DNA of 44,054 nucleotides from a virus. Position numbers and translations under genes: made by a program. The DNA lies in the IMG/VR virus record IMGVR_UViG_3300046557_000653, positions 1 to 44,054 of that record. One strand, 5' to 3'. Positions 5,550-18,407 of this stretch are shown here, piece by piece (the first letter of the stretch is position 1; each line of letters begins with the position of its first letter). The notes under the pieces were generated by a model. That model searched no databases. It was not told the DNA's origin and saw nothing but the letters and a program-made list of their open reading frames with translations.

Positions 5550-7553
5550 TTATTCCTTCGTGGCCGCTGCCGCTTTCAGCTCGGCGATGAACGCCGAACC
5601 CAGCTGGCGGTGATACTTGCAAAGGATTCTCCAGCCGAGCGCGGCCTGCTTCTGCGTGATGCTCGTGCGGTGCGCGAGCGCGTGCCCGATTTGAACGTCG
5701 ACCGCGGAAAACCCGACGTCGTCGAGCTTGCACGCGCCGTCGCACACGCCGGCCAGCATCTTCATGCCCTGGTGCACCAGCTCCACACAGCGGTCGCTCA
5801 CTAGCTTCGCCTCCGCAGCAACGCGCTCGACCGTGAGGCGGACCTTGGTGACGGGCTCGACCTCTTCCACTTCGGCCTCGGACCAGTCCGTGATTTTGTC
5901 CAGGCAGGCGTCGATGACGTTCAGTTTTTCCACGATGGTGCGGGACATGTGCGCGTCAAGCGAGCCCTCCAAAACCAAGTAGCTGCACAGCACGCTGTCC
6001 TTTTGGCCGATGCGGTGCGCGCGGTCTTCCATTTGCGCATGCTTGCCCGGGACCCACTGCAGCTCGACAAAAATTACATGCGTGCCGGCGGTCAGCGTCA
6101 GCCCCTCGGCAGCCGCGAGGTTACCCACAAAAATATTGCACTCGCTGTCGGTCTGGAAGCGGTCCACTTGTTCCATGCGCTTCGCCGCGGGCGTGTTGCC
6201 TGTGATGACCGCCGCTTGCGGGAACTTCGCCACGATGTCGGCGACAATGTCCAGGTGATGCGCGAACACAAGCACCTTGCCCGATTCCATCGCGTCCTCG
6301 ATGAACGCCAGACACTGCGGCAGCTTGGCGGCGGCGACCTTGTGCCGGAGCTCGGCCATGTCCTCGAACGCAGCGCCCTGCCCACGGCGCAACGCGTGCA
6401 CCGCGTCCGCGTATTCTTCGCGGCTCTCGCCGGCGCGTGCGAGCTCAACGCGGGCGCGCAGCTCGGTCAGCACCGCTTCGCGCTCCTCGACCATATGCGC
6501 TTCCAGCTCGAGCAGCTCCTTGCAGCCGGCGGCGTCTAGCTCGATGACCTGACGTTGTTTCGGCGGCAGCTCCTTGAGCACGTCCTTTTTCAGGCGGCGG
6601 ACCATGATGGAGGACCGCAGCTTATGCTGCAGCTCGGCCTCGTTCGAGTGACCCGAAAAGTCCCAGCCGAACCCGTTCTGCTTGGCGGCGCAATAGCGGC
6701 GCGCGTATTGAAAAAAGCTCGCCTTGGGCCACGCAACGGGGTCCAGGTCGTTCAGGACCGGCCAGAGCTCGATGGGGCGGTTTTCGATGGGCGTGCCGGT
6801 GAGCGCGACCTTGCGGGCGGCGCGAATGGCGAGCGTGGACTTCGTGCGGCGCGCCTTGGGGTTCTTGATGTATTGGCTCTCGTCGCAAATGCGGAGGTCC
6901 CAGTTCCGGTCAGCAAACGCCGGCAGGAACTTGTGCGCGATATCGTAATTGACGATGACGATGTCTGCCCGGGAAAAGGGCTTGTTGGCATACTGCACCT
7001 CGACCGACATCGGGCGCGTTAGCCACCGCTTCAGCTCGCGTGACCAGTTAATTTTGAGCGTGTTTGGGCAGACGATGACGACGGACTTGATGTCGGGCGT
7101 GGCGTTTATCAGACCGATGGCCTGAATAGTTTTGCCCAAACCCATCTCATCCCCGATAAGCACGCCGCGCTTGGCGCTCCAGCAGTCCAGCCCGAACGCC
7201 ACGCCGGCCTTTTGGTAAGGCAGGTAGTTCAGCCCGGCGGGACGGGGGAATTCGACGTTCGCATCGGTCGCGCGGGACGCCTCGGCCACCACGGACCGGC
7301 GCGCCTGCTCGGCCTTGGCGGCGACGGGGTCCAGCGATGCCCACCAGTTAACAATCCACGCGCCATTCGGCTGCCGCTTGGGGGAGATGCCCGCCGCCTG
7401 AAGGGCGGGCTTGTTCTGCTTCCAACAGTCCCAGAAGGAGGCGGGGACGGTCAGCGCGACCCGCAGGTTGCGCTCGGACCCGTCCTGGAGCCGCACGCGA
7501 CGCGGCGCGCCCCAGGGGAGGATTTTTTCAATCTGGACTTCGGTTTCGTTCAT
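5550..7553 (-). CDS. SNF2-family DNA helicase/ATPase (SMARCAL1-like)
   Basis: 667 residues from the ATG at 7553. An earlier in-frame ATG at 7649 would overlap another gene for no gain. Motifs in order: Walker A GDEMGLGKT (134-142), motif II DESQ (224-227), motif III LTGTPIE (251-257), and motif VI ARG-containing HRIGQ (513-517) preceded by GLTLTAG. This is the complete two-RecA-lobe SNF2 architecture, closest in layout to the short SMARCAL1/ZRANB3-like phage helicases that anneal or remodel branched DNA. Residues about 340-405 form a charged helical insertion between lobes. A roughly 110-residue C-terminal tail has no recognised domain. Probably acts in phage replication or recombination together with the DUF2800-type nuclease. 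Confidence 0.92.
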   Translation of the reverse strand: MNETEVQIEKILPWGAPRRVRLQDGSERNLRVALTVPASFWDCWKQNKPALQAAGISPKRQPNGAWIVNWWASLDPVAAKAEQARRSVVAEASRATDANVEFPRPAGLNYLPYQKAGVAFGLDCWSAKRGVLIGDEMGLGKTIQAIGLINATPDIKSVVIVCPNTLKINWSRELKRWLTRPMSVEVQYANKPFSRADIVIVNYDIAHKFLPAFADRNWDLRICDESQYIKNPKARRTKSTLAIRAARKVALTGTPIENRPIELWPVLNDLDPVAWPKASFFQYARRYCAAKQNGFGWDFSGHSNEAELQHKLRSSIMVRRLKKDVLKELPPKQRQVIELDAAGCKELLELEAHMVEEREAVLTELRARVELARAGESREEYADAVHALRRGQGAAFEDMAELRHKVAAAKLPQCLAFIEDAMESGKVLVFAHHLDIVADIVAKFPQAAVITGNTPAAKRMEQVDRFQTDSECNIFVGNLAAAEGLTLTAGTHVIFVELQWVPGKHAQMEDRAHRIGQKDSVLCSYLVLEGSLDAHMSRTIVEKLNVIDACLDKITDWSEAEVEEVEPVTKVRLTVERVAAEAKLVSDRCVELVHQGMKMLAGVCDGACKLDDVGFSAVDVQIGHALAHRTSITQKQAALGWRILCKYHRQLGSAFIAELKAAAATKE

Positions 7554-7584: not shown

Positions 7585-7794
7585 TCAAAGCAATTCGCGG
7601 TGCGCCGCGGCCTTGGCAAAGACCTCGATGTGTCCCAGTCGGGATTCAAAGGTCACCTGTATGTCGCCGTCCACAAAATACACCCGGTGACGCCGGGACA
7701 TGGCGGACCAGACCGGAAACGTATAGCGGGGGTCGGCCACGCCGTTAAAAACCAAGTGGCGGTCAGCGTTGCAATCAACAGAGTTTATTTTCAT
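7585..7794 (-). CDS. Hypothetical protein, 69 aa, leaderless
   Basis: MKINSVDCNADRHLVFNGV at the N-terminus, no recognised domain. The ATG lies 5 nt after a GATATT -10 box, so the mRNA probably starts at the ATG itself. It is the first gene downstream of the structured RNA array and precedes the helicase by 31 bp. Confidence 0.7.
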   Translation of the reverse strand: MKINSVDCNADRHLVFNGVADPRYTFPVWSAMSRRHRVYFVDGDIQVTFESRLGHIEVFAKAAAHRELL

Positions 7795-7799
7795 GGCTC

Positions 7800-7828
7800 A
7801 ATATCGCGCAGGTCGCGCGCCTTGTCAA
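7800..7828 (-). promoter_or_regulatory. Class II leaderless promoter
   Basis: TTGACA (7828-7823), 17 bp, GATATT (7805-7800), then 5 nt to the ATG at 7794. The spacer carries CGACCTGCGC, nearly identical in three other class II promoters. Confidence 0.8.
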
Positions 7829-7839
7829 ATTTAAAAAGT

Positions 7840-7929
7840 TGAGCGGGGTGGGGTTGTGAACCCACTGGCACCCAGTAGCTACCCGGGCGTCCTTACAGAA
7901 TTTGCTGACCGTCGTCGGCCTCTCCGCTC
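7840..7929 (-). ncRNA. Structured RNA F, cloverleaf-like
   Basis: No convincing ORF. Closing stem GAGCGG/CCGCTC (7929-7924 with 7846-7841), then three hairpins: 7920-7917/7910-7907 (loop GACGAC), 7892-7885/7873-7867 (one bulge, one G-U) and 7865-7861/7852-7848 with loop TTCACAAC, close to a T-loop. The last hairpin sits one base from the closing stem, as a T-arm does. A CTTTTT run follows the 3' side. No usable anticodon arm, so not a normal tRNA. Probably the last member of the array that starts at the RNA B promoter. Confidence 0.5.
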
Positions 7930-7937
7930 GTAAAATT

Positions 7938-8043
7938 TGGTGACGGCCCGGGGACTCGAACCCCGGCGCGTGCAGCAGGCGTATCAAGAGTGTTGACGCT
8001 CTCTCCAATCCTGGTCAACCTGCACACGGAAACCAACGCCATC
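7938..8043 (-). ncRNA. tRNA-like RNA E with encoded CCA end
   Basis: The 3' part is canonical: T-arm CGGGG-TTCGAGT-CCCCG (7965-7949), one-base step, acceptor strand GCCGTC (7947-7942), discriminator A and CCA (7940-7938). The 5' acceptor strand GATGGC (8043-8038) pairs with it (6 bp, one G-U). In place of D and anticodon arms there is a short GG-containing loop (TTGGTTTC) and a 9-bp helix, 8028-8020 with 7975-7967, capped by a further 6-bp stem (8019-8014/7997-7992). At 106 nt it resembles a tmRNA tRNA-like domain more than a decoding tRNA; no anticodon can be assigned and no tag frame is visible. Could also be a decayed class II tRNA. Confidence 0.55.
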
Positions 8044-8048
8044 AGCTG

Positions 8049-8099
8049 AGGCGGGTCACCCTCCACCGGGGGTTCCGCGGGTCGCGTTTGCAACCGCCT
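8049..8099 (-). ncRNA. Structured RNA D, three-way-junction fold
   Basis: Closing stem AGGCGG/CCGCCT (8099-8094/8054-8049) encloses hairpin CGCG-ACC-CGCG (8086-8076) and a 4-bp hairpin 8073-8070/8061-8058. Individual helices are short and the region is GC-rich, so this member is supported mainly by repeating the layout of RNA A and B. Confidence 0.35.
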
Positions 8100-8107
8100 G
8101 CCGCTTC

Positions 8108-8153
8108 CACCCCAATAATCGGACTTTCCGATGGCTCTCGCCCGTCCGGGGTG
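8108..8153 (-). ncRNA. Structured RNA C, three-way-junction fold
   Basis: Closing stem CACCCC/GGGGTG (8153-8148/8113-8108) encloses GGC-GAGA-GCC (GNRA loop, 8142-8133) and ATCGGA-AAG-TCCGAT (8132-8118). The two hairpins abut, as in a stacked junction. No protein-coding alternative is convincing. Confidence 0.45.
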
Positions 8154-8164
8154 ACGCGCCTCAA

Positions 8165-8231
8165 CCGACAAAAATCACTGTCGGTGGCGTGCGCTCCCGC
8201 ACATTGTTTGGGCACCCCCAAACCACCGACA
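8165..8231 (-). ncRNA. Structured RNA B, three-way junction with an alternative helix
   Basis: Perfect 9-bp closing stem TGTCGGTGG/CCACCGACA (8231-8223/8187-8179) encloses TTTGGG-GGTG-CCCAAA (8222-8207) and GTGCG-GGAG-CGCAC (8202-8189). The first hairpin stacks directly on the closing stem. Downstream, TGTCGG (8170-8165) can pair instead with CCGACA of the closing stem, giving two mutually exclusive folds. The predicted transcription start of its promoter (about 8230) coincides with the 5' end of the closing stem. A 67-codon GTG frame runs across the region but shows no protein-like features. Confidence 0.7.
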
Positions 8232-8234
8232 TAG

Positions 8235-8283
8235 TAAAGTGCCACACGTCCATCAAACCGTCAAGCGGGTTTCGCAACGTATT
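8235..8283. repeat. 49-bp direct repeat, copy 1 (promoter of RNA B)
   Basis: Identical to 8407-8455. It comprises the -10 box, spacer, -35 box and the bases encoding a YVAKPA gene tail. The adjoining bases 8284-8299 also match the copy at 9052-9067. Confidence 0.9.
8236..8264 (-). promoter_or_regulatory. Promoter of RNA B
   Basis: TTGACG (8264-8259), 17 bp, CACTTT (8241-8236). Predicted start about 8230, at the first base pair of RNA B. Likely also drives RNAs C to F. Confidence 0.7.
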
Positions 8284-8311
8284 TTTTTCTGTCCAGCGTC
8301 CTCAACTGACA

Positions 8312-8400
8312 TCGACTGAAGAAGGCGAACCGACCGTCGTCCGCGACCACTGCCGCGGGGGCGAACCCTTTCCTACGACCGTTTCGCCTGCTTCAATCGA
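8312..8400 (-). ncRNA. Structured RNA A, long closing stem with two hairpins
   Basis: An 18-bp closing stem (8400-8383 with 8329-8312) has one mismatch and one G-U pair. It continues into a second helix of 8 bp with one mismatch (8382-8375/8340-8333). Inside are GGG-TTCG-CCC (8368-8359, a UUCG tetraloop) and CCGCG-GCAGTGGT-CGCGG (8358-8341). An 18-bp near-perfect pairing over this distance is unlikely by chance. The promoter upstream predicts initiation at about 8401, the end of the stem. No ORF. Its layout (closing stem plus two adjacent hairpins) matches RNA B although the sequences differ. Confidence 0.75.
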
Positions 8401-8406
8401 CACCCA

Positions 8407-8455
8407 TAAAGTGCCACACGTCCATCAAACCGTCAAGCGGGTTTCGCAACGTATT
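8407..8455. repeat. 49-bp direct repeat, copy 2 (promoter of RNA A and 3' end of Mom-like gene)
   Basis: Identical to 8235-8283. On the minus strand it encodes the last residues of the Mom-like protein (QYVAKPA-stop) and then the promoter of RNA A; the TGA stop is part of the -35 box. Confidence 0.9.
8408..8436 (-). promoter_or_regulatory. Promoter of RNA A
   Basis: TTGACG (8436-8431), 17 bp, CACTTT (8413-8408). Predicted start at 8401-8402, directly at the closing stem of RNA A. Confidence 0.7.
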
Positions 8456-9026
8456 GTTTTACGGGATATAACACCAGCTTAAACCGAAACTTAGATATCC
8501 GTGGAACCCGAACCAACTCGGCCCCTGCCGGGACATTTCCCCGCCGCCCATATTTTTTGCCCGTGCGTGCGTCGGCATAGTCGTGCCGCGGAGTTTTGCG
8601 CCCCTCATCGGTGCGGCCATCGGCCACCCAGTTCGCAGCGCGATAGATGGTCCCGGCGTGCCCGGCGCTGGGGTCCGCGTAGGATACAAGGAACTGCACT
8701 TCGGGATGGTTGCGGCGAATGTATTTCACGCTGCCGGAAATGGCCCATGTTTCGGCATTGGCGGGCACCTCGTCAAGCAGGTAAAGTCTGGCTAGCTCCC
8801 AAGTTTTTCCCCCATACCGCACATCCGACTGTTTGGGCGGTGCCGAGTATAGCACCATCCCAACCAGCTTACCAAAAGAAAAAATGCCGAGGGATAGCAG
8901 GACAATGGCGGGGCGTTTTTTGAGATAATGGACAGCGACGAATGGAGCGACCGCGCGCAGAGATACCGGCCGCAATTCCGAATTTTTACGCCATTCGGAG
9001 TCAAAGACAGGTCCAAAGGGTTTCAT
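8433..9026 (-). CDS. Mom-like DNA base-modification protein
   Basis: 197 residues from the ATG at 9026. The region YADPSAGHAGTIYRAANWVADG (about 116-137), preceded by ELARLYLLDEVPANAETW, is the hallmark of the phage Mu Mom family, a GNAT-fold group that adds a carbamoylmethyl-type group to adenine N6 and protects phage DNA from restriction. DYADARTGKKYG and the preceding R/H-rich stretch also fit. The C-terminus VAKPA is shared with the upstream gene through a DNA repeat. The start lies 2 nt after that gene's stop, so translation is coupled. Activity on this phage's DNA is inferred. Confidence 0.85.
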   Translation of the reverse strand: MKPFGPVFDSEWRKNSELRPVSLRAVAPFVAVHYLKKRPAIVLLSLGIFSFGKLVGMVLYSAPPKQSDVRYGGKTWELARLYLLDEVPANAETWAISGSVKYIRRNHPEVQFLVSYADPSAGHAGTIYRAANWVADGRTDEGRKTPRHDYADARTGKKYGRRGNVPAGAELVRVPRISKFRFKLVLYPVKQYVAKPA

Positions 9027-9028
9027 GG

Positions 9029-9067
9029 TCAAGCGGGTTTCGCAACGTATTTTTTTCTGTCCAGCGT
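9029..9067. repeat. 39-bp partial copy of the promoter-associated repeat
   Basis: Matches 8261-8299 exactly. Here it is the true 3' end of the DUF4258-like gene (LDRKKYVAKPA-stop), suggesting this was the source of the copies next to RNA A and RNA B. Confidence 0.9.
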
Positions 9068-9394
9068 GCGGTGGTTGTCGTCCGCCCGATTCAGCCAGAC
9101 CGTTTTCACCCGGCAGTCCGGGAGGGACACCGCCAAGACAAGGTCCCAGCCCGGGCGGGAGGGCAGCGCCTGCCTCACCAGAACCCCGCTGGCGCGTCGG
9201 AACCACGTCTCGACGTGGACGATGGTCCAGGCGTCCAGGGCCAGGGAAACGGGCAGCTCGTGCGAGCGCAGCCCGTCCTGGAAGGCGGCTTCTGCCGCGT
9301 GCCGGGTGTAAACCAGCCGGGAAAAATTCACGGCTCGGACTTCTGCCACCAAAGGGGCGGGCAGGTAGATGTCGCGGTGGAAGTCTAGTCGCAC
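9029..9394 (-). CDS. DUF4258-like small protein
   Basis: 121 residues from a GTG at 9394, chosen because it follows a good ribosome site (GGAAGGA) and overlaps the upstream stop. VYTRHAAEAAFQDGL near the N-terminus and VKTVWLNRADDNHRTLDRKKY at the end are typical of a common family of small proteins with His/Arg-rich motifs (DUF4258-like, related to RelE-fold or toxin-like proteins). No antitoxin-like partner is certain; the 76-aa upstream gene overlaps it. Function unknown. Confidence 0.7.
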   Translation of the reverse strand: MRLDFHRDIYLPAPLVAEVRAVNFSRLVYTRHAAEAAFQDGLRSHELPVSLALDAWTIVHVETWFRRASGVLVRQALPSRPGWDLVLAVSLPDCRVKTVWLNRADDNHRTLDRKKYVAKPA

Positions 9395-18147: not shown

Positions 18148-18156
18148 GGGCATGCG

Positions 18157-18317
18157 CTTACACGTCACAGTCAACCTACCCTCCACCCACACAGGTTTTC
18201 TGGCTTTACTTTATCTGTTTTTGATTGAATCTATCTAATAAATATATATAAGTAGAAGAAGGATAGATAGTTATAAAACCTGTGTGGGTGGAGGGTAGGT
18301 TGACTGTGACGTGTAAG
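18157..18317. repeat. Perfect 43-bp inverted repeat around a 75-bp AT-rich centre; candidate origin or control element
   Basis: Arms 18157-18199 and 18275-18317 are exact reverse complements over 43 bp. The 75-bp centre is very AT-rich (runs such as AATAAATATATATAAG) in an otherwise GC-rich window and has its own shorter pairing (ATCTATC with GATAGAT). It sits exactly where leftward and rightward transcription diverge, flanked by class I promoters on both sides. The form suits a replication origin with an unwinding element, or a cruciform/hairpin control site. Candidate only. Confidence 0.85.
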
Positions 18318-18407
18318 GAAACAGCGAGGTGCTCGGTCGGACGTCACTCGGACCCCCTCGCATGGCTACTTTTGACCGAGAGCAGAAAATCGTGCATTTT
18401 GCACGCC

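Follow-up and report, generated by a model that had tools for sequence, protein, structure and literature searches.

To our knowledge, few phage noncoding RNAs have a known function. The stable RNAs C and D of phage T4 are small RNAs of unknown function that lie in the T4 tRNA cluster, while tmRNA combines a tRNA-like domain with a long helix and a pseudoknot. Among the structured RNAs of phages and prophages, GOLLD and ROOL, often located near tRNA islands and also of unknown function, are hundreds of nucleotides in length and form RNA-only cages (PMC12286853). Counter-defence by RNA alone has been demonstrated mainly against CRISPR, through the Racr anti-CRISPRs, small RNAs from accessory phage loci that are molecular mimics consisting of solitary CRISPR repeat units (PMC10651486). 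Adenovirus VA RNA I is built from a long terminal stem with a three-way junction at its centre, and the VA RNAs imitate double-stranded RNA and block host sensors (PMC6599070).

The window analyzed here, the whole 44,054-nt stretch of IMG/VR record IMGVR_UViG_3300046557_000653, is in part identical to contig IMGVR_UViG_3300046737_000227 (74,199 nt) and carries on its minus strand what is, judging from comparison with related phages, very probably a genuine cassette of small noncoding RNAs. The region lies between gene X (9029..9394, minus strand) and an adjoining mom-like DNA-modification gene (8433..9026, minus strand; Pfam Mom PF25680, E=3e-27) on one side and a gene for a SNF2-type helicase (5550..7553, minus strand; Pfam SNF2-rel_dom, E=1.2e-40), with its own promoter at 7588, on the other. 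Gene X encodes a conserved phage protein of 121 aa and is directly upstream of the cassette in most relatives, in which the helicase gene likewise forms the other flank. The relatives comprise 25 loci (given here as L with a number) recovered by a helicase search, all of them on metagenomic viral contigs; wider searches with gene X and the helicase returned no further carriers of the cassette, and a DNA similarity search of GenBank phages returned no similar DNA. At L027 (724-3753) the helicase is 1010 aa in length, compared to ~667 aa in relatives, and has two insertions, one of ~150 aa and one of ~160 aa. Elsewhere in the window, a near-perfect inverted repeat (18155-18319) with arms of ~44-48 bp, which include GGTTGACTGTGACGTGTAAG, and an A+T-rich centre sits where gene direction switches, and could represent paired divergent promoters or a replication or regulatory site.

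The cassette includes two types of RNA, RNA1 and RNA2. RNA1 sequences start with GUCGGUUGAGG and finish with CCUCAACUGA, and their closing helix consists of 13 bp, a one-base mismatch, and 7 bp, followed by a three-way junction. There are six members: RNA A (8311..8401, minus strand) and RNA C (8041..8169, minus strand) of the window, L005 671-788, L023 4357-4478, L027 455-573 (also present in L028), and L021 993-1082, with lengths of 91, 129, 118, 122, 119, and 90 nt, respectively. RNA C, with a 20-bp interrupted closing stem and a three-way junction, is the main RNA1 of the window and scores 112.8 bits in an RNA1 model that includes RNA C itself. Because the lengths differ, the conserved ends keep no common reading frame, and the family thus lacks the conserved ORF that the first-pass annotation of this DNA had named as a finding that would speak against an RNA. 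In an automatic alignment of the six sequences, 98.3% of the closing-stem cells are paired and nine of the 20 pairs are doubly changed in a compensatory manner (17 such cells), compared to shuffle means of 83.6%, 3.8 pairs, and 5.1 cells, with none of 500 shuffles reaching values as high. Slid-structure controls had 38–50% of cells paired; as the structure was derived from the same sequences, the slid control alone flatters the fit and the double changes constitute the stronger evidence. Amongst the three most similar members, the full three-way junction is present, with 12 of its 35 pairs doubly changed. Both the three-way-junction layout proposed in the first-pass annotation and the compensatory changes it had suggested looking for in related phages are therefore borne out.

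Defined as a helix starting with GUCGRUUGA located 5–8 nt after TTGAC-N17, RNA1 is present with both parts in RNA A and four relatives, while RNA C possesses the helix and has no promoter directly before it. In several relatives, the same promoter comes after gene X, and the RNA next to it is RNA1 rather than RNA A or RNA B (see below). The RNA1 end pattern had matches in IMG/VR beyond this phage group, none with a cassette, and three matches in 84,980 prokaryote genomes, against ~15 expected by chance, none with the two-step helix or the promoter. As the outside matches are either without a cassette or chance-like, RNA1 has so far no known member outside this group of phages. A palindromic loop, GUUGCAAA, is conserved in RNA C, the RNA1 of L005 and L023, and the RNA2 of L005; the loop sequence GGUUGCAAAC, with a palindromic UUGCAA core, occurs in RNA C (8098-8070, minus strand), at L005 671-788 and 785-951, and at L023 4357-4478. 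The loop could mediate a kissing-loop contact between RNAs.

RNA2 follows a general plan in which the ends are complementary, a hairpin resembling a T arm carries a UUCGA loop, and the terminus is NCCA. The window representative, T1 (7938..8043, minus strand), is a 106-nt tRNA-like RNA with an acceptor stem (GAUGGC/GCCGUC), a T arm (CGGGG-UUCGAGU-CCCCG), and an ACCA end, and is a gap-free homologue of L027 582-687. In the comparison of these two sequences, the only ones on which this covariation is based, all 29 pairs are kept over 106 columns without gaps and 11 are doubly changed (0 of 500 shuffles as high); a candidate pseudoknot (GUUGAC/GUCAAC) is present in both, its letters invariant. 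A longer form in L005, L008, L023, and L021 has 30 consensus pairs, of which ten are doubly changed, five of these in the acceptor stem. An RNA2 model (R3) run against the other RNA2 class gave only sub-significant scores of 14.6–16.4 bits, with the loci ranking next after the true members. In total, the comparison covers six different RNA1 sequences and between six and eight of RNA2. The RNA2s are tRNA-like under a looser criterion (acceptor stem, T arm with a UUCGA-type loop, and encoded NCCA), with acceptor stems that bear a mismatch or bulge and with no clear D or anticodon arm. A true tRNA was considered and rejected, as no cloverleaf with D, anticodon, and T arms was recognized by ARAGORN, which predicted 0 tRNA or tmRNA genes across the window and 18 pieces of contigs, or by Rfam, in which there was no tRNA match at E<=5.

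A strict scan for an acceptor stem, T arm, and CCA across 454 kb on both strands returned T1 and the L027 RNA2 only, and a relaxed acceptor and T-arm scan returned most of the other RNA2s plus chance-like matches outside the cassette. Throughout the strict scan, and in some of the relaxed one, the program chose a 5′ partner other than that used here, so it is the 3′ half of RNA2 that the scans support; the covariation counts support the whole RNA. One of the relaxed-scan matches, in contig G010 (L102), was discarded as it falls inside a protein gene, which calls for caution with relaxed scans, and the additional IMG/VR matches to the RNA2 motif GAGACAAC..TTTGTC lack the cassette and look protein-coding. 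Beyond T1, a second and weak tRNA-like candidate represented by a single sequence, T2 (7838..7929, minus strand), has complementary ends (GAGCGG/CCGCUC), a long variable-arm-like hairpin, an 8-nt T-loop-like loop, and no encoded CCA, and no homologue of it was found. L005 (1064-1179) and L023 (4701-4816) have in common a 116-nt noncoding stretch with the complementary ends GCGGUC...GGCCGC, located after the tRNA-like RNAs, which is possibly a third RNA of the cassette. The first-pass annotation had correctly placed small structured RNAs at the promoters, including RNA A, now part of a conserved family, but had missed the larger cassette with its main RNA1 (8169-8041) and had overlooked the tRNA-like RNAs at 8043-7938 and 7929-7838.

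RNA2 is located downstream of RNA1 or, in L008, L014, and L015/L016, directly after the promoter. Five phages have the two RNAs side by side, and the final bases of RNA1 in L005 and the window (UGAC/UGAU) double as the start of the RNA2 acceptor stem. Such intimacy would fit a role for RNA1 as a processing or stability device, with RNA2 as the functional product (e.g., a modified tRNA or a ribosome-directed RNA) and with the long stem either shielding the 5′ end of RNA2 or being cut by RNase III to release it, a 20-bp helix being near the size that RNase III cuts. This is rather unlikely, however, given the loci in which RNA2 directly follows the promoter in the absence of any RNA1, the occurrence of RNA A without an RNA2 behind it, and the conservation of the RNA1 interior as a three-way junction, which goes beyond what a stem alone would need.

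The twin TTGACG-N17-CACTTT promoters described in the first-pass annotation were recovered on the minus strand as promoter 2 (8408..8436, -35 start at 8436), which is conserved in relatives, and promoter 1 (8236..8264, -35 start at 8264). In all six promoter–RNA pairs (window A, window B, L005, L023, L027, and L021) the spacer is 17 nt, and GUCG[A/G]U starts 5 nt past the -10 hexamer in four of them and 6 and 8 nt past it in the other two; the promoter sequence of L021 differs and the geometry is unchanged. Six protein genes in the window have an ATG 5–6 nt past the -10 of the same type of promoter, which suggests leaderless mRNAs across this region of the window and implies that transcription would start close to the base that opens the RNA1 stem. 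The earlier prediction that the RNA begins at its closing stem is thus backed by comparison, and transcription is predicted to begin at the first base. The sequence TTGACA-N17-GAcaTT, with ATG only 5–6 nt past the -10 box, precedes many minus-strand genes of the window (e.g., 13389, 11181, 10679, 10081, 7828, and 7588). The additional matches to the promoter pattern elsewhere in IMG/VR are without a cassette.

The folds of the two RNAs described initially were reproduced. RNA A, for which the outermost possible pairs reach 8404/8308, has a minimum free energy of -51.5 kcal/mol (z = -5.5; 0 of 200 dinucleotide shuffles as good), and RNA B (8179..8231, minus strand), located just upstream of RNA C, has a perfect 9-bp closing stem and two inner hairpins, then GTGATTTTTG (z = -3.3; 1 of 200 shuffles as good). 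Counting long stems with at least 19 of 20 positions paired and a span of 60–130, shuffles of the window gave an expectation of 0.25 per strand; the minus strand has four, two of which, RNA A (8404/8308) and RNA C (8170/8040), fall within a 365-bp stretch. When RNA A was left out of the RNA1 model, it still scored 24.2 bits (E = 7e-6 within 801 nt), a result obtained with filters off on the local stretch and with rough E-values from a short calibration; under default filters on the whole window the same leave-one-out model did not report it. In the same test RNA B, half the length, scores 8.1 bits. That the unit is a matched pair of RNA A and RNA B is not supported: the conserved member is RNA C, RNA A is a diverged copy of RNA1, and RNA B, which is not counted as a member here, could instead represent a hairpin of the terminator type or a leaderless ORF of 23 codons. 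This possible ORF (8162-8233, minus strand; ATGTCGGTGGTTTGG...GTCGGTTGA), which RNA B overlaps, starts 3 nt past the -10 box, and no homologue was seen.

A further alternative is that RNA1 is a mere 3′ terminator or cis element of the gene X or mom mRNA. The long GC-rich stem and the T runs behind the RNA1 of L021 and L027 and behind RNA B are of the kind expected of a terminator, but the stem is separated from the gene by a promoter of fixed geometry, no T run is present behind RNA C, RNA A, or the L023 RNA1, and a covarying three-way junction of 90–129 nt far exceeds a terminator, such that this explanation is improbable.

The arrangement in the window appears to have been shaped by insertion. 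The 49-bp repeat noted initially extends to 54 bp (8235-8288 and 8407-8460; 98% identity), and a third, partial copy is found over 40 bp as an identical direct repeat with an outer copy at the end of gene X (9028..9067) and an inner copy that is a remnant of the gene X tail (8263..8302), the two enclosing mom, promoter 2, and RNA A. The C-terminus of the mom product, YVAKPA, is the same peptide as the tail of gene X (8433-8460 and 9029-9050), and it appears that the mom tail was copied from that of gene X when mom and RNA A were inserted, as if mom, the second promoter, and RNA A had been inserted by recombination at conserved gene-end/promoter sequence. The window cassette has acquired a second RNA1, RNA A, along with the anti-restriction gene mom. 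The TGA stop of gene X (9029-9036) and of mom (8431-8438) falls within the TTGAC of the -35 box of the next promoter, as does the stop of gene X in L011 and L022, an overlap that may make gene ends favourable for cassette exchange.

Across the relatives, the cassette is absent, shortened, or moved amongst phages with flanks that are 91–96% identical. The flanking genes of the window and L005 are 94.5–96% identical, while a blastn alignment within the cassette covers the promoter stretch only; in the inner 7-bp helix of RNA1, 6 of 14 letters are kept along with all of the pairs. L010 has no RNA of any kind and is 95–96% identical to L008 in both flanks, and in L021 the cassette is situated upstream of gene X, a site at which L022, the flanks of which are 91–93% identical, has none. 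Gain, loss, and replacement of this sort are usual for accessory phage genes, including counter-defence genes, and would be in keeping with such a status. Gene X is retained without the RNA cassette in L010, L011, L013, L018, L019, and L022. A toxin–antitoxin-like pair of type III character, with gene X as a RelE-like ribonuclease restrained by the RNAs, would draw on the position of gene X directly upstream in most relatives and on a structure model of gene X (pLDDT 87; a single-sequence model was discarded as too poor) for which a fold search against the PDB returned nothing significant, the best match being an archaeal RelE at a non-significant E=0.82. The six loci that keep gene X without the cassette and the location of the L021 cassette away from the gene X end argue against such a pair. 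Type III antitoxin RNAs are tandem repeats that precede the toxin on a shared transcript, an arrangement not seen here, where the RNA comes after gene X and has a promoter of its own, and the pairing is improbable. A packaging RNA of the DNA-packaging motor, the parallel drawn in the first-pass annotation, would share with this locus only the small size of a phage RNA and its three-way junction, and is hardly credible given that none of 4227 Rfam families, pRNA included, matched (the pRNA covariance model neither at its gathering score nor at E<=5) and that the cassette is missing from relatives with nearly identical flanks and lies amongst mom, the helicase, and small early-type genes with packaging genes absent, as would not be expected of an essential packaging part.

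What the comparisons across relatives show is that the structures are present, conserved, and linked to a promoter and that the cassette has been gained, lost, and relocated. The explanation that we favour, tentatively and at somewhat less than an even chance, is an accessory cassette with a promoter at the start of a stem, a trans-acting RNA1, and a tRNA-like RNA2, which interfere with a host factor; action through a host factor is, taken on its own, slightly more doubtful. Under this explanation, the host-type promoter TTGAC-N17-CACTTT would start transcription within a few bases of the opening GUCGG of RNA1, which would fold into a terminal helix of 13 bp, mismatch, and 7 bp over a three-way junction. 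Read-through would yield RNA2, with its 5′ end presumably cut by RNase P, for which an acceptor stem and T arm are the minimal substrate, and with the encoded CCA, followed by a T run, as its 3′ end. The next gene after the RNAs has a separate promoter (TTGACA-N17-GATATT, 7800..7828, minus strand), so the genes further downstream are independent of transcription of the RNAs, and we infer on this ground that the RNAs act in trans. As a guess, RNA1 might, by analogy with adenovirus VA RNA, act as a decoy for some protein able to bind or cut double-stranded RNA, and RNA2 may mimic a tRNA and engage enzymes that handle or cleave tRNAs. That the whole would form an undescribed RNA-only counter-defence cassette, pairing a dsRNA-like decoy with a tRNA/tmRNA-like mimic under one promoter, swapped from phage to phage as anti-defence genes are, and accompanied here by the anti-restriction gene mom, is a more speculative and unlikely extension.

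The cassette RNAs probably serve the phage in some so far undescribed way. The cassette is compact, with two folds supported by covariation, a defined promoter, and natural presence/absence pairs amongst near-identical phages, and its function is for these reasons directly testable. Should RNA1 prove to be a dsRNA decoy, VA RNA would have a counterpart in bacteria, and if RNA2 were a CCA-bearing tRNA-like mimic, it would bear on how phages handle tRNA-targeting defences or ribosome rescue.

The first-pass annotation had named no phage RNA family as a match, and at gathering thresholds there was no match amongst the 4227 Rfam families, and at permissive thresholds (E<=5) nothing credible, the microRNA-family matches to RNA A being long-hairpin artefacts. 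The pRNA of phi29 is alike in size class and in its three-way junction, whereas the cassette is accessory and unlinked to packaging genes. Compared to GOLLD and ROOL, the cassette RNAs are short and have no Rfam match. T4 RNAs C and D, compared by description only, are similar as small phage RNAs in tRNA-type company and differ in that no tRNA was detected by ARAGORN in the contigs scanned and in that the RNA1 layout and cassette promoter are not known from T4. T1 and the L027 RNA2 resemble tmRNA in their acceptor stem, T arm, CCA, and possible pseudoknot, and in a long helix at the place of the anticodon arm; unlike tmRNA, T1 is only 106 nt in length, with no tag reading frame seen by eye, and the best Rfam tmRNA score was 12.8 bits against a cut-off of 47, with no tmRNA predicted by ARAGORN. 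The Racr RNAs are, like those of the cassette, small phage noncoding RNAs from an accessory locus, while RNA1 is a 90–129 nt RNA with a three-way junction and has no CRISPR-repeat family match that reaches the cut-off (only a match to CRISPR-DR28 in L005, 19 bits against a cut-off of 35, was seen below it). The likeness of RNA1 to VA RNA I, both being viral noncoding RNAs with a terminal stem and a three-way junction, is an analogy in layout only, with no kinship in sequence expected, and unlike VA RNA I, which belongs to a eukaryotic virus, RNA1 is accompanied by a tRNA-like partner.
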